From Rhodococcus sp. SGAir0479 (lineage in GTDB: Bacteria; Actinomycetota; Actinomycetes; Mycobacteriales; Mycobacteriaceae): a stretch of DNA of 64,000 nt. The stretch covers positions 1,488,001 to 1,552,000 of the forward strand of contig NZ_CP039432.1 in the NCBI RefSeq assembly GCF_005484805.1, read 5' to 3'. Below the pieces are notes generated by a model, which did no database searches, was not told where the DNA came from, and saw only the letters and a program-made list of their open reading frames with translations. Each line of letters begins with the position of its first letter. The stretch's first letter is position 1. Shown here piece after piece: positions 57,793 through 64,000 of this stretch. A program made the translations under genes and the position numbers.

Positions 57793-58698
57793 CTAGTGCA
57801 GCACGGCCAGGCCGCGTTGGAAGCTGTCGATGCGCTGCAGCAGGCCGTGCGTTCCGCCGTTGACGATGCGCGAGACGCTCTCGATGTTGCCGCTGTCGGA
57901 CACGGCGTTGAGGTTGCGCGACTGCCAGTACCAGGCGGCGGTCTCGAACGCGTTCTCCGGCGTCGCCATGAGCTCGGGGTGGGCGACGAAGTCGATGCCC
58001 AGGTAGGCGCTCACGCTCTCGTAGTTGTGCCGGCCCGTGACCTGGATCGCGCCGCGACCCTTGTAACGCTCGCCGTCGCCCGGAGCGACGTTGCCGAGGT
58101 CGGCGCGGCCCTCGTAGGCACGGCCCGAGGCGTACTCCTCGAACGTGCGGAACGAGTCGGACTCGACGACGAGCTGCGCGATGAACGCGGCCTTGCGCAG
58201 CGGGGTGTCGATCCCGGCCTTCGCGAGCGCTTCGTTCAGCGGCGCGACGTAGCCGGCCAGTCGATCGGGCGCCACCTGCGGCACGATGCGGGCCAGCTCG
58301 TCCAGCGTCACCGATGCCGGTGCCGGCGGCGGCGGGGGTGCGATGGCCGCGATCGCCGCGGGGACGGCGGCGGCCTGCGGCGCGGGCGCCGTCGCGGTAA
58401 CGTCCGTGACGGCGTTGGTCGTCGAGGTCGCGGGTGTGGTGGTGCCCGGCAGGTTGAGGGCCTTCAGCAGGCCGGTGGAATCGAGGAACTGCGCCGGGGT
58501 GGTCAGCGGCGCGGCCGTGGCTGCGGGAGCGTCCGGCAGGGTTGCGGCCTGGCTCGGTGTCGCCGAGCCCAGGGTGGCGTTACCCACCCAGAGGCCGGCT
58601 GCGGCGAGGGTCGCCAGTCCCGCTACGCGGGCGCGTGACATGAAGCCACAGCGGGAGGTCGACGTCTGGTCGAAGGTGTACGTACGCGAATCGGTCAA
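57793..58698 (-). CDS. Secreted GH19 (chitinase/endolysin-like) protein
   Basis: The protein has a signal segment (about MSRARVAGLATLAAAGLWVG), a Pro/Ala/Thr-rich linker (about 75-150), then a GH19 lysozyme-like domain with KAAFIAQLVVESDSFRTFEEY (catalytic Glu in place of HET), YKGRGAIQVTGRHNY and ETAAWYWQSRNLN. It probably cuts peptidoglycan or a chitin-like polymer outside the cell. TTG 58698 (302 residues with stop) follows GGAG at eight bases; ATG 58641 would give a more usual signal peptide but has no ribosome site, so the start is uncertain. Confidence 0.83.
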   Translation of the reverse strand: MTDSRTYTFDQTSTSRCGFMSRARVAGLATLAAAGLWVGNATLGSATPSQAATLPDAPAATAAPLTTPAQFLDSTGLLKALNLPGTTTPATSTTNAVTDVTATAPAPQAAAVPAAIAAIAPPPPPAPASVTLDELARIVPQVAPDRLAGYVAPLNEALAKAGIDTPLRKAAFIAQLVVESDSFRTFEEYASGRAYEGRADLGNVAPGDGERYKGRGAIQVTGRHNYESVSAYLGIDFVAHPELMATPENAFETAAWYWQSRNLNAVSDSGNIESVSRIVNGGTHGLLQRIDSFQRGLAVLH

Positions 58699-58953
58699 GG
58701 TTCGTGCTCCAGCTTCGGGCTGCAGACGGGGCAGCCTCCGGACGTGAGCACCGGTAGAGTCGGGGAGTGGTTCCGACCGTTGAATTACTCGGCGGTCACG
58801 GCAAGGTCACAACTAGATAACAGGTCGATACGCAAAGATCGCAAGGACGCATCGACAGCGTCACAATCCAGTAACGGTGTGACATGGCCCACAGCGGTGG
58901 GCGAGCGGTGTGACGAAGCCTGCACGCGGTGTTTGTGCTGGTACAGACGGCAA
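58699..58953. other. Leader region upstream of the GH19 gene
   Basis: These 255 bases hold no supported gene. They should include the GH19 promoter and a leader of up to 200 bases. I compared the leader with the c-di-AMP (ydaO) riboswitch, which often precedes actinobacterial cell-wall hydrolases, and did not see the needed motifs. Confidence 0.5.
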
Positions 58954-58983
58954 TACGCCGCCCCGCGGGTGCGGGACGGCGTA
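58954..58983 (-). terminator. Hairpin downstream of the JetC-like gene
   Basis: A stem of about 13 base pairs with one G-U pair on the minus strand (58954-58966 with 58971-58983) and a four-base loop lies about 25 bases past the JetC stop. It would close the JetB-JetC transcript. Confidence 0.7.
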
Positions 58984-59007
58984 GCTACCGTTCGGGCCGG
59001 CCGCCGG

Positions 59008-62000
59008 TCAGGCGTCGACGAATTCCAGGCCGCCTTCAGCCGCGGCCGGGAGCCGGCGGCGCATCGGTGAGCCCAGCGCGCGCGCCAGGTTGCTGCCGTC
59101 GTGCTCGGCCAGCAGTTCCCCGCCGGACCACACCAGCAGGGCCGCGCTCACCGTCTGCTCGGCTGTCGAGTGCGCGAGATCGTAGTGCGCGCAGCCCGGC
59201 ACGCCGGCATACGTGATCCACAGGTCGTAACCGGTCATGAACAGATCGAGGTCGAACTGCACGCTCAACCCCAGCAACTCGCTGCGCCCGTTGTCGTCGA
59301 CGCCGGCGAACGCCTCGTCCAGCCCCAACAGGCGCGGTGAGTGCGGATCGGCCGAGGACAGCATGACGTGTGCGGCCGCGAACAGCGGCAGGTGCAGCGA
59401 CACCGACTGCTCGCCGCCGGACAGGGCGCTGTGCCGGGCGACCGTGAGCCGGTCCTCGCTTCCGTCGCCACCGATGAGCGTGAACGAGAACACGCGCCAG
59501 CGTCGGTAGTCCAGCGCCCCCGCGAGGATCTCCGGGTACGACCGCTCCGGGTGCGCGGCTCGTGCGGACCGCACCTGGGACGCGAAATGCGCACGGATGG
59601 TAGCCAATTCGTCGGCGCTCAGTGCCGAAGGCGCGCGGTCGAGAAGCTTCGAGACGGCCCGCGAGCTGTCGTCGAGATTGTCGGCGAGCACCCAGTGGAC
59701 GCCGATCGTGCTGCCCGACGACATGCGCCGCTCGCGCATCTCGGCACCCATCTGCGCGATGAGGTCGCGGGCGTCGGCGGTGCGCTCGTGGATCTGCTGC
59801 GCGAGGCCCGTGAGCAGTGCGTCCTCGAGGATTCGCCGCTCGGAGTCGGTCAGCAGCACCTCCTGCTCCTGCCGCGCCGCGCGGATCCGGGTCGAGAACT
59901 CACCGATCGACGAGTACCCCTGGTCGTCCTGGACGCGCACCACGGTGAGACCGTCCGGCGCGTCCCACTGCAGACGGTAGTCCTGGCCCGCGGCGGCCAA
60001 CTGGGCGTCGAAGTCCTGCAGCGCGGCCGTCAGCGCCGATCGAGTCGACTTCTTGGCGTTCTCACTCGTCCTCACGGACCCGGTCGCGGTGTCCACCGCG
60101 CGGTACAGCGCCGCCACCTCGGGTGGGAGGATGGGTGCGTCCGGATCGCCCTCGGTCGCGATCCGATAGACGAGCTGGTCGGGCGTCATCCAGGCGGCCG
60201 AACTCTGCGGCCACGAGTGGGCGGTCTCCACACCGAGCAGGTCGAGCAGGTCCCGGCGCGCGTAGGGCGCGAGACGATCTGCGTCCGTTCGGGTTTCGGT
60301 CAGGGCGTTGCGCAGCGTCTCGATCGCCGCGGTGTGCGCGCCCTCGGCCTTGCCGATCTGCTCGACAGCGACGTCGTAGGCTTTGCGGGCCGCGCGCTGC
60401 TCGGTCTTGCACATCTCGATGCGGGCCCGGGCCTGTTCGAGGTCGGCGTCGATCTGCTCGGCGCTCGCGCCCAGCGCCTCCCGCAGCGTCTCGAGGCGCG
60501 ACACCTGCTGCGCGTAGTTCTCCTCCGCGACCGCCGCTTCCTCGACGAATTCCTCGGTGTTGCCGCGCGCCTCCTCGAGGCGGTCCTCCGCCTCGCGGTG
60601 CAGTTCGAGTTCCTTCTCGTGCTCGCGTCGGCACCGCAGCAGCTGCTCGCCCTGGCTCTCGAAGTGACGGATGGCGGCCGCGAGCGCGTCGACGTCGCGG
60701 GCGTGGGGCGGCATCCGGTGCGCGGCGGCGACGGCGCGCAGTTGCTTCTCCTTGGCGGTGTGATCGGCGATCGCCTGGTCGAGTTCGTCGCCGGCGCTCG
60801 CGGTGGATTCGGTGCGGGTCCGCAGCGCGCCCGCGGCCTCGGTGAGCTTCTTGATCGCGACCAGCACCCCCGACGTGCGCGGCAGCGCCTTGGCGGCCCC
60901 GGCCAACCGATCGAGAACGTCGGTGGTCTCCGCCTCCGCGTCCCGGGCCGCGGCGAGCGCCTCCTCGGCGGCCGCGATCTCGTGGTCGATCTCCGCGAGC
61001 CGCTGGGCGCGGCGCCGCTCGCGCGCCGTGGTGCCGATGTACTCGGCGTGGGCCTTGACGTGACGACCGTGCTGGATCCCCTGCCGGAAGTGCCCGTCGA
61101 TCCCGACGGCGACACCGAAGTCGCCGACGGAACCGTCACGGTGCAGTGCGATCGATTCGAGGATCGCCTGCACGGCCGCCTCCGGCACACCCGCGTCGGG
61201 CTCGACCTCGAGCACGTCCGCCAGCGTCGGCCCCGCCGGCCGCCGGTCGGCCGGCAACGCCGTGAGGAACTGCTCGGACTCGACGTCGGGCAGCGGATCC
61301 TCGCCGCCGTACACCCAGCCGTCCAGCAGATTGGCCGCGGCGAGCGCGGACTCGACACCGGCGGCGACCGCGGCGTCCGTCCCGTCCGCGAAGCGCACGA
61401 GACGCCACAGCGGTGCGCCCGGCAGACCGCTGCGATCATCCGTCCGGAACGCGAAGGCCGCCGGGGCGTCGTCGTGCTCGGCCGCGACCCGCCCGCGGTC
61501 GGCCCGCAACGCGGCGATCCGTTCCTTCGTCGCCGTCTGCGCGGCCACCGCGTCGCGGCGCTGGGCACGCTGTTCGTCGAGGGCGGACTGCGCATGCTCG
61601 TGCAGCACGGTCGGCAGGCCGGGGGAGTCGTCCTCACCGGCCTGCGCCAGAGCGCCGTCGAGCGCGGCGAACAGGTCCGCGGTCACCCCGATCGACGCGT
61701 ATTCGGTGGAGTGCTCGGTCCACCACCCGCGCAGCGATGCCGCGCAGTCCGCGCGCGCGAGCTCGACGGCCGCCTCGGCCTCGGCCACCGCGGCCTGCGC
61801 GGCGTCGAGGAGCTCGCGGCCCTTGCCGGCTGCACGGTCGGCGCGCTCCCGCTCCGTGCCGGCCTTCTCCACCGTGGCGAGCGCGGCGCGGACCGCGCGG
61901 ACGTCGCCGTCGCGTTCCTCCGCGTGTCCGCGCACGGCGGTCGTGATCTTGTCCGAGCGCACGTTCTCGGGCAGCGGCGTCCAGGCGATGCCCGCCTGCT

Positions 62001-63180
62001 CGGCCGCGTCGGCCAGCTCCTCCTCCGCGCGCACCAGCGCGGCACCCGCCCGGCGGACCGAGTCGGTTGCGCGGGCCGCATCGGCCGTGCGCTGCTCGAG
62101 TGTCGCCTGCGCCTTGCGCGCCTTGTCCGCCTGCTGGGCGGTCGACACCTTGAGCTGCTCGACGGCGGCGGCGAGGTCGTCGAGCTGCTGCTTGCCCTCG
62201 TAGGCGCCCGACCGCTGCAAGGTGTCGAGATCCGCGCGGGCCTGCTCGAGCGCGCGCTCGGCGGCGGTGAAGCGGTCCTCCGCGCGCAGCCGTTCCTCCT
62301 GGCGCGTCGTCTGCAACGCCAACGCCTCGTCGAGGACCGCCTTCGCGCGGTCCACCGACTCGAGTCGGCGGGCGACCTGCTCGACGTCGGTGCGGGCCTG
62401 CTGAGCCAGATACCGCGAGTACACCGTCACGAAGCTCTGCGCGGCCTGGTCGGCGGCGGCGAGGCCCTCGAGGGCCCGGCCCACCTCCTCCATGTCGCTG
62501 AACGACCGCGCCGCCTCGAGCACCAGTTGTTCGTCGAGCGGGCGCAGTCCGTCGGTCAGGGCCTGCGAGAGCCCCTTGGGGTCGAGGTTCTTCGCGAGCT
62601 GAGGACGCCGCAGCGTCAGGATCAGGTTGATCAACTGGTCGTACCGCTCGGAGCCGAGCCCGAACAGGCGCGCGTCGATGGCAGCACGGTAGTCGACGGG
62701 GCGGTCGGTGATGGCGTCGCTGCCCAGCTGGTCGGCGAGCTGCTTCTTGGTCAGCGGCCGGTCGTCGCTGCCGAGCAGCGAGAAATCGACCCCCACGCGT
62801 CCCTCGGCGACGAAGTACCAGCGGGTGACCTTGTCGTTCTGGCGGGTCGCGCGCATCCCGATGCCGACCGTGACGGCTTCCGGGTCGTCCTGCGCTCCGC
62901 GGCAGAACTCCATCCACACGTACGAGTGCGCCGAATCCTGTCCGCGGTAGAGCAGATTCGACTTCATGGTCCGTTCCTCGCCCGCGAACGGGTTGAGCCG
63001 ACGCGGCTCGATCCGGCCGTCGAACACGAAGGGGAACAGCACCTCGAGCGCCTTGGTCTTACCGGAGCCGTTGGGGCCCCGCAGCACGAGGCGGCCGTCG
63101 GCGAAGGAGAACTCCTGGTCGCGGTAGTCCCAGAGGTTGATGATCCCGGCGCGGGTCGGCTTGAAACGCGCGTGTGCCAT
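59008..63180 (-). CDS. SMC-like ATPase of the TIGR02680 family (JetC of type II Wadjet)
   Basis: The 1390-residue protein has a P-loop at residues 35-42 (GPNGSGKT), long coiled-coil stretches on either side of a middle domain (about 215-520 and 690-1030; middle about 520-690, containing GAPLWRLVRFADGTD), and a C-terminal head with signature LSGGEQ (1253-1258) and Walker B LLGLDEAF (Asp1288, Glu1289). This is the SbcC/SMC architecture of TIGR02680, the motor of type II Wadjet (JetABCD) systems, which extrude DNA loops and clear circular plasmids. The JetB-type gene ends 13 bases upstream. No JetD gene follows. Confidence 0.92.
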   Translation of the reverse strand: MAHARFKPTRAGIINLWDYRDQEFSFADGRLVLRGPNGSGKTKALEVLFPFVFDGRIEPRRLNPFAGEERTMKSNLLYRGQDSAHSYVWMEFCRGAQDDPEAVTVGIGMRATRQNDKVTRWYFVAEGRVGVDFSLLGSDDRPLTKKQLADQLGSDAITDRPVDYRAAIDARLFGLGSERYDQLINLILTLRRPQLAKNLDPKGLSQALTDGLRPLDEQLVLEAARSFSDMEEVGRALEGLAAADQAAQSFVTVYSRYLAQQARTDVEQVARRLESVDRAKAVLDEALALQTTRQEERLRAEDRFTAAERALEQARADLDTLQRSGAYEGKQQLDDLAAAVEQLKVSTAQQADKARKAQATLEQRTADAARATDSVRRAGAALVRAEEELADAAEQAGIAWTPLPENVRSDKITTAVRGHAEERDGDVRAVRAALATVEKAGTERERADRAAGKGRELLDAAQAAVAEAEAAVELARADCAASLRGWWTEHSTEYASIGVTADLFAALDGALAQAGEDDSPGLPTVLHEHAQSALDEQRAQRRDAVAAQTATKERIAALRADRGRVAAEHDDAPAAFAFRTDDRSGLPGAPLWRLVRFADGTDAAVAAGVESALAAANLLDGWVYGGEDPLPDVESEQFLTALPADRRPAGPTLADVLEVEPDAGVPEAAVQAILESIALHRDGSVGDFGVAVGIDGHFRQGIQHGRHVKAHAEYIGTTARERRRAQRLAEIDHEIAAAEEALAAARDAEAETTDVLDRLAGAAKALPRTSGVLVAIKKLTEAAGALRTRTESTASAGDELDQAIADHTAKEKQLRAVAAAHRMPPHARDVDALAAAIRHFESQGEQLLRCRREHEKELELHREAEDRLEEARGNTEEFVEEAAVAEENYAQQVSRLETLREALGASAEQIDADLEQARARIEMCKTEQRAARKAYDVAVEQIGKAEGAHTAAIETLRNALTETRTDADRLAPYARRDLLDLLGVETAHSWPQSSAAWMTPDQLVYRIATEGDPDAPILPPEVAALYRAVDTATGSVRTSENAKKSTRSALTAALQDFDAQLAAAGQDYRLQWDAPDGLTVVRVQDDQGYSSIGEFSTRIRAARQEQEVLLTDSERRILEDALLTGLAQQIHERTADARDLIAQMGAEMRERRMSSGSTIGVHWVLADNLDDSSRAVSKLLDRAPSALSADELATIRAHFASQVRSARAAHPERSYPEILAGALDYRRWRVFSFTLIGGDGSEDRLTVARHSALSGGEQSVSLHLPLFAAAHVMLSSADPHSPRLLGLDEAFAGVDDNGRSELLGLSVQFDLDLFMTGYDLWITYAGVPGCAHYDLAHSTAEQTVSAALLVWSGGELLAEHDGSNLARALGSPMRRRLPAAAEGGLEFVDA

Positions 63181-63193
63181 GCGAAAGGTGCCT

Positions 63194-64000
63194 CTACTTC
63201 TCTGCGGAGGGGTGCTCGGCGGTGGTGGGTGGGCCGCCGGGGACCGGGTCGTGGAACAGGTCGGACTGCGCCGTGCGTTCCCGGATGTTGACGACGACGC
63301 CGCGGAAGCGGGCGATCGCCGGCAGGACCAGGACGCCGTCGTCCACCGTCCGGATCAGGTCCAGCCGGTCGAGCAGCGCGACGGCGCTGCGGCGCAGCCC
63401 GGTGTGGTCGGCCTGCCACTGGGCGGCGAAGGTGCGTCCGAACTGATGGACGAGTTCGTCGACCGCGCCGGTCAGCCACGCGTCGTCGAGCAGTGCGTAG
63501 CGGACCGGGTCGGGGGAGTCGTCGGCCGGCGCGAAGAATTCTGCCGGCGGGACGGTATCGGCCGGCTCGTCCGCCAACTGCTCGAAGACACCGTGACGGG
63601 GGATGGCGGCGTCCAACTGGGCGATCAGGGCGTCGGTGCCGGAATCCGGCAGCGGCCGCGTCGGTAGCGCGGGCGCGTCCGGATCGAGCACCCGGTCGGC
63701 CATCTCGCCCGCCAACAGCAGCGCCACCTGTGAGACCGTGCCCGTGCTGGGAAAGCGGACGTCCGACATCCGGCCCGACGGGTCGATCATCGCGATGCCT
63801 TCGGCGCGGCGTTCGGCGACGAGTCCGGTGAGCTCTTCGACATCGGCGGCGGTGCGTGGCAGCGCGAGTTGCAGGCGTTCGTCGTCGGTGAGTTCGTCCG
63901 CGTAGACGACCGGTCGTTCGACCAGCGCGCGTCGTATCCGCCGGGCGACCTCACGCTGGTCGGCGGGGCGGTACGCGATCACCTCGTCCTCGGCTCCGGG
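63194..64000 (-). CDS. TIGR02678/DUF2398 protein (JetB of type II Wadjet), N-terminus cut by window end
   Basis: The frame is open to base 64000, so the start lies outside. The visible 268 residues include VERPVVYADELTDDERLQLALPRT, then LTGLVAERRAEGIAMIDPSGRMSDVRFPSTGTVSQVALLLAGEMAD, which is the signature region of TIGR02678 (DUF2398), and winged-helix-like segments near the C-terminus. JetB is the kleisin-associated subunit of type II Wadjet complexes. It ends 13 bases before JetC on the same strand. JetA (TIGR02677) would be expected upstream, beyond the window. Confidence 0.85.
   Translation of the reverse strand, partial: PGAEDEVIAYRPADQREVARRIRRALVERPVVYADELTDDERLQLALPRTAADVEELTGLVAERRAEGIAMIDPSGRMSDVRFPSTGTVSQVALLLAGEMADRVLDPDAPALPTRPLPDSGTDALIAQLDAAIPRHGVFEQLADEPADTVPPAEFFAPADDSPDPVRYALLDDAWLTGAVDELVHQFGRTFAAQWQADHTGLRRSAVALLDRLDLIRTVDDGVLVLPAIARFRGVVVNIRERTAQSDLFHDPVPGGPPTTAEHPSAEK

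Follow-up and report, generated by a model that had tools for sequence, protein, structure and literature searches.

A type II Wadjet operon without its JetD nuclease in Rhodococcus sp. SGAir0479, a possible MksBEF-like condensin

The window analyzed is a 64,000-nucleotide stretch of the Rhodococcus sp. SGAir0479 chromosome (contig NZ_CP039432.1, G000:C1:1488001-1552000; the host genome is 4.97 Mb in two contigs), and the subject is its jetABC operon, which crosses the window edge and has no jetD nuclease gene. We hold with moderate confidence that jetABC is a type II Wadjet operon whose ancestor lost jetD and whose products would act as an MksBEF-like condensin mainly on the chromosome. The jetC gene (59008-63180, minus strand) encodes a 1390-residue type II Wadjet ATPase resembling the structural maintenance of chromosomes (SMC) proteins, and it scores 748 bits with TIGR02680 (cut-off 463). 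A motif scan found its Walker A motif (GPNGSGKT), signature motif (LSGGEQ), and Walker B-like motif (LLGLDEAF). A spacer of 13 bases (63181-63193) separates jetC from jetB, whose 3' part occupies 63194-64000 (minus strand) and whose start lies 624 bases past the window edge. The full jetB (L002:7194-8624, minus strand) encodes 476 residues from a GTG start at L002:8624, overlaps jetA by 4 bases, and scores 144 bits with TIGR02678 (cut-off 125) and 241 bits with DUF2398. Directly upstream and outside the window is jetA (G000:C1:1552621-1554141, minus strand; 506 residues), with 240 bits for TIGR02677 (cut-off 166) and 483 bits for DUF2397. All three proteins are above the curated cut-offs of the TIGR models, and the PADLOC models JetA2, JetB2, and JetC2 (PDLC00553) give 618, 705, and 1448 bits, respectively. 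The genes are intact, tightly packed on one strand, and in the usual order A-B-C. An earlier sequence-only reading of the window had described a type II Wadjet-type locus lacking JetD, with jetB and jetC 13 bases apart; the spacer was measured as claimed, both genes are real, and there is no JetD beside jetC. The reordered complete locus that it also considered, with a TIGR02679 gene directly upstream of jetB, is not what lies past the window edge, where jetA is found instead.

JetD was not detected anywhere in the host genome. The four family models TIGR02679, PF09983, PF09664, and PF11796 gave no match over the whole genome, and neither did A1, a clade-specific profile made from 12 JetDs, at E ≤ 1 (in the host genome, 23 of the 67 first-look candidates were scored). 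The suggestion that JetD might lie elsewhere in the genome thus finds no support at the sensitivity of these profiles. A1 had no match at E ≤ 1 in the 13 other members of the genus either, and no jetD open reading frame (ORF) is present between jetC and the next gene downstream. As controls, PF09983 matched in Corynebacterium glutamicum, and TIGR02679, PF09664, and PF11796 matched 0 of 14 control genomes. When scanned, four JetDs from the clade score 122–142 bits with PF09664 and 84–97 bits with PF11796, and TIGR02679 detects JetD in 17 of 80 related genomes. Over 80 genomes, A1 returned 20 strong and 6 weak (E 0.013–0.37) matches, recovering 6/6 genomes known to be JetD-positive from the TIGR02679 search plus 14 more; three of those six (G110, G145, and G146) had fed the profile, and G140, G292, and G042 are independent of it. 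When 22 JetDs were searched by tblastn against as much as 3 kb 3' of JetC in each of the 86 loci where JetD had not been found, one match resulted, at E 0.064. The host genome encodes a canonical SMC (C1:2474023-2477595, 1009 bits), which makes JetABC a second SMC complex. We take the subunit roles of JetABC (SMC, kleisin, and KITE) from the Jet literature and assume that jetB encodes the KITE-type subunit. The locus then holds the subunits of an MksBEF-like set without a nuclease: A, B, and C are present, and D was not found.

The absence of JetD is a lineage trait. JetC occurs in 14/14 genomes of the genus (the Prescottella or Rhodococcus equi group), 13 of them above the cut-off, with G183 being a frameshifted assembly, and JetD occurs in 0/14 by TIGR02679 and A1 searches. 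Named records whose JetC is identical to that of several of these genomes are labelled Prescottella or Rhodococcus equi/hoagii group, and the JetC proteins of named group members are 83–89% identical to that of the host. A set of 108 distinct JetC loci of the clade was fetched; it is not random, comprising the 80 nearest to the host JetC out of 369 relatives, plus others picked by hand from a survey. JetD is adjacent to JetC in 22 of these loci and missing in 83, and the other three end less than 1500 nt past JetC, so JetD is absent beside JetC in 83 of the 105 informative loci. The sequence-only reading had ranked the locus as the window's strongest candidate for an unusual system; it is not strain-specific, and the JetD-minus state is the commoner one among the fetched loci of the clade. 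The survey contained 129 genomes of the family with long JetC matches, 99 of which were searched for JetD; 131 genomes had no JetC match. Any JetD was found in 31/99 (17/80 by TIGR02679 and 14/19 further genomes by A1). In other families of the order, DUF2399 (PF09664) was present in 54 of 63 JetC-bearing genomes, a comparison that is rough because the model differs and adjacency was checked for only part of the genomes. In the parts of the open-access literature searched, we found no account of type II loci from Rhodococcus or Nocardia that lack JetD.

Type II loci outside this clade vary as well. More distant type II JetABC-type loci of genus g13 (L195-L197) have no recognisable JetD adjacent, and the same holds for the second copies of genus g27 (L199, L200, L082, L090, L093, and L076), with jetA unrecognised in L076. 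An ORF of about 560 residues lies directly 3' of jetC on the same strand in L199 and L200. Five loci from another family of the order (L212 and L213 of g69, L214, L215, and L216) have no recognisable JetD beside JetABC, and DUF2399 was not found genome-wide there. In L189-L192, which belong to a different type II lineage, jetD comes first (D-A-B-C).

JetD was probably ancestral to the clade and repeatedly lost, with some regain possible. The JetC tree was built from 104 of the 108 loci, leaving out L151, L152, and L074 (contig ends) and L182 (frameshifted), and its sister clade was drawn from 20 chosen loci and two plasmid records. With outgroups included, the sister comprises two Streptomyces plasmids plus five loci that come from two further families of the order. 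All seven carry JetD in the order A-B-C-D. In the JetD tree, the 22 JetDs of the clade group together (97/98) and are sister (95/90) to the same seven, as in the JetC tree. The JetD and JetC distances have a correlation of 0.98 (Mantel 0/2000), with most pairs falling within Rhodococcoides and the JetD-plus lineages numbering four. If JetD is ancestral and was never regained, the raw tree implies 18 losses; collapsing nodes below 0.7–0.95 lowers this to 13, and a threshold of 0.99 lowers it to 11.

The JetD-plus and JetD-minus loci often occupy one chromosomal site, metH ... jetABC(D)-mshC. A metH or PAC2 gene is upstream in 15/22 JetD-plus loci and in 54/86 of the others. On the downstream side, mshC lies on the opposite strand 1228–1289 bp past the JetC stop in 20/22 JetD-plus loci and is found in the fetched pieces of 33/86 other loci, 12 of them with mshC at 11–120 bp, 6 at 1042–1666 bp, and the remainder elsewhere. 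The 12 JetD-minus loci with mshC no more than 120 bp from JetC leave no room for jetD. In Prescottella, the downstream side holds a glycoside hydrolase family 19 (GH19) gene and usually mntH. Close relatives differ in their state: of two Rhodococcoides kyotonense records, JCM 23211 has JetD and KB10 does not. In the JetD-minus Rhodococcus sp. HNM0563 (L139), the first 18 bases past the jetC stop match the jetD leader of its sister SMB37 (L141) at 16/18 positions. The JetCs of the two sisters are about 90% identical, and the match is a weak hint of a deletion, not proof. The JetD-plus sister clade, the agreement of the JetD and JetC trees in this part, and the shared site together make it probable that the clade's ancestor had JetD and that it was lost more than once.

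The JetABC complex looks functional as judged from its genes. The three ATPase motifs are present in all clade loci except L152 (cut by a contig end) and L182 (frameshifted), and A, B, and C are complete in 102/108 loci. Four of the remaining six are cut by contig ends (L149, L152, L153, and L172), and the other two are L182 and L123. The last is a JetD-plus Rhodococcus locus whose jetA frame is split, and it may represent a complete system that has been broken. The L182 locus (Prescottella defluvii SampleD3_15, also L057) has broken frames in metH, a major facilitator superfamily (MFS) gene, jetA, jetB, jetC, and mntH; assembly errors are likely because the neighbours metH, MFS, and mntH are broken too. 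The ratios of nonsynonymous to synonymous substitution rates (dN/dS) in nine JetD-minus pairs were 0.014–0.20 for JetA, 0.015–0.28 for JetB, and 0.048–0.21 for JetC, compared to 0.064–0.074, 0.079–0.20, and 0.051–0.062, respectively, in three JetD-plus pairs. By this measure, JetABC is under purifying selection in both kinds of pair, and the constraint is strong. Alignment columns conserved in the four JetD-plus lineages are on average 95–96% conserved in the JetD-minus loci. Docking residues lost together with JetD were sought, and none were found.

We propose that an ancestor lost the nuclease gene jetD and kept the motor genes jetABC. The JetABC complex would still load on DNA and extrude loops, and it would be unable to cut. 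Alongside the canonical SMC it may then be a second condensin, similar to MksBEF, that acts chiefly on the chromosome instead of destroying plasmids. Rhodococcus- and Nocardia-type bacteria have often retained the motor despite what appears to be repeated loss of the nuclease, which suggests that it has another job, perhaps chromosome shaping. The precedent for this reading is MksBEF of Pseudomonas aeruginosa, also a three-subunit MukBEF/Jet-like condensin without a nuclease beside a canonical SMC, whereas the subunits at the Rhodococcus locus are those of type II, DUF2397 and DUF2398. The available parts of PMC10586767 and PMC7485682 report that P. aeruginosa MksBEF has a role on the chromosome, which for the Rhodococcus locus is a prediction, and the former, a review, puts forward in the part available the nuclease-free motor reading for the Pseudomonas complex. 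The likeness to Wadjet type II (JetABCD) is in the order of A, B, and C and in their scores above all three curated cut-offs. The differences are that no JetD was found in the host genome and that the operon sits in core-gene surroundings, at a site common to many relatives. MksBEFG of C. glutamicum (Wadjet type I) is likewise a second actinobacterial SMC complex, found beside Smc-ScpAB, but it has the MksG nuclease and acts on plasmids, according to the available part of PMC10123090. Among the closest plasmid-borne relatives are those of the Streptomyces plasmids NZ_CP108391 and NZ_CP109482. Their JetC is about 50% identical over 82–84% and their order is A-B-C-D, but they are linear plasmids with a JetD (DUF2399/TIGR02679) that overlaps the jetC end. 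The solved chains 9qe0/9qe1 are related to JetC (E 1e-67) and JetA (E 1e-12). At E up to 0.1, neither JetB nor the JetD profile matched a solved chain, and one JetD of the clade, searched singly, retrieved only six unrelated chains at E 0.6–0.7.

Several observations weigh against this proposal. By Fitch parsimony the ingroup takes 5 changes, or 6 once the sister clade is added. With the sister clade left out of the tree, a reversible model reaches a log likelihood of -22.7 with a JetD-plus root and -21.3 with a JetD-minus root, compared to -26.4 for irreversible loss and -30.2 for gain only. The reversible model outfits irreversible loss, and regain is therefore possible. Of the loci without JetD, 53/86 have no downstream mshC in the fetched piece, and the short JetC-mshC gap is not general because six JetD-minus loci have mshC at the longer distance. 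The JetA and JetC dN/dS values are higher in most JetD-minus pairs, which could reflect mild relaxation, and the retained columns fit a kept function but would also fit some other partner. In C. glutamicum, where MksG is present, MksB affects plasmids and showed no effect on how the chromosome is organised, as described in the available part of PMC10123090.

The same data bear on two other accounts of the missing gene. JetD could have been ancestrally absent and gained about four times beside JetC, as the Fitch reconstruction on the ingroup alone favors gains from a root without JetD and such a root fits slightly better on the ingroup tree. This is improbable, given the JetD-plus sister clade and the agreement of the JetD and JetC trees there, the same position with the same downstream gene, and the slight deletion signal from the HNM0563 leader. 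A shade less probable still is a JetD that escapes detection through divergence, or one that another Jet locus provides in trans. JetD does evolve faster than JetC (39–50% versus 62–70% identity between the four JetD-plus lineages), and some genomes (G144, G121, and G294) combine a complete JetABCD with a second JetC that scores similarly to this clade and may belong to it. However, the five models match nothing in the host genome within the scoring described above for A1, the 12 loci with the shortest JetC-mshC gaps have no space for the gene, and tblastn downstream of JetC in 86 loci produced just the one marginal match.

Two further accounts concern what JetABC does now. That it is the decaying leftover of a defense system that broke down is very improbable. 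The missing JetD, the broken A, B, and C frames of P. defluvii, and JetA and JetC dN/dS values mostly above those of the JetD-plus pairs would fit decay, but the three genes are complete in nearly all loci, the exceptions being contig cuts, L123, and L182, the dN/dS values are well below 1, and the ATPase motifs are missing from L152 and L182 only. A stronger contender, which we still consider unlikely, is that JetABC remains anti-plasmid without a cutter of its own, entrapping and compacting small circles or handing them to a nuclease encoded elsewhere. The retained columns would suit this activity, as would the possible compaction of circular DNA by Smc5/6, proposed for viral circles, and the polar position of C. 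glutamicum Wadjet components, both from the available part of PMC10586767. However, no additional gene is broadly conserved next to the JetD-minus loci. Rhodococcus erythropolis NI86/21 also speaks against it, as the available part of PMC12915292 lists for this strain a three-protein Wadjet_II together with a 5.9 kb circular plasmid and two plasmids of 106–107 kb. Small circles thus appear to be tolerated at least in that strain. R. erythropolis NBRC 15567 (L183) is JetD-minus, and the pair of observations would fit a loss of plasmid restriction, on the basis of one strain. The chromosomal condensin remains the reading we prefer.

No substitute effector was found beside JetABC. Neighbour clustering took in all ORFs in any frame from 9 kb upstream to 6 kb downstream, so that several clusters are not genes, and the JetD-minus loci were assigned by hand to 19 blocks of the JetC tree. 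There were 43 clusters present in at least 3 of the 19 blocks, and 11 of the 43 were absent from JetD-plus loci. The widest of these 11 (6 blocks, 16 loci) is an ORF that runs antisense to metH, the second widest (5 blocks, 8 loci) overlaps jetA by position, and the other nine have 3 to 6 loci each; no JetD-minus-only ORF family therefore spans more than 6/19 blocks. The sequence-only reading had offered a nuclease-less variant with a different effector, and of this the nuclease-less part stands, with no replacement effector found beside the genes. The GH19 neighbour (57793-58698, minus strand; 301 residues, secreted-looking, PF00182 36.6 bits) lies outside the system. It was rejected as a new effector, being found in 15/86 loci without JetD (the 14 Prescottella loci and L154) and 0/22 with JetD. 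The GH19 ORF starts 309 bases 3' of jetC on the same strand, as had been reported at about 300 bases, and the intervening hairpin is confirmed as a GC-rich region from the jetC stop (58900-59010, minus strand). These 111 nt form a strong hairpin with a minimum free energy of -55.6 (z -3.07; 2/200 shuffles equally good). It is a candidate transcript end without a T-run, and the terminator scan found no stem plus T-run after jetC.

Upstream of jetA is a helix-turn-helix (HTH) gene (L002:10185-11279) whose HTH_IclR score of 20.4 bits is below the cut-off of 22. A role as operon partner is not supported. The gene adjoins jetA in Prescottella and the R. erythropolis group and lies 1.4–3.9 kb from it in R. 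koreensis, R. tibetensis, and R. ruber, and the fetched loci that bear the names Rhodococcoides or Nocardia yielded no copy. A tetratricopeptide repeat (TPR) regulator of the NsdA family (89.8 bits) is encoded on the same strand upstream of jetA in 28 Nocardia-type loci only (e.g., L095:12844-14178). The NsdA-type protein is likely a regulator, not an effector, and may control JetABC in those loci. A phage origin of the close clade was rejected because no phage record matches JetC, and a plasmid origin because all 19 matching plasmid records are below 60% identity. The second contig of the host genome (G000:C2, about 104.5 kb) is possibly a plasmid.

Beyond this operon, we tentatively suggest, at somewhat less than even confidence, that the type II Jet motor is a housekeeping chromosome-organising complex in Rhodococcus- and Nocardia-type bacteria, with a dispensable nuclease shed at least 10 times independently. 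Nature seems to have deleted JetD repeatedly, with close relatives in both states, which makes the question directly testable. According to the available part of PMC10482375, 73% of 97 Rhodococcus genomes have Wadjet, a restriction-modification system, and either Eleos or PD-T4-3. Nuclease-less loci may be among the "Wadjet" systems counted in Actinobacteria. If the suggestion is true, many of the Rhodococcus and Nocardia "Wadjet" calls would not be plasmid defense, and defense and chromosome maintenance would be interconvertible states of one machine.

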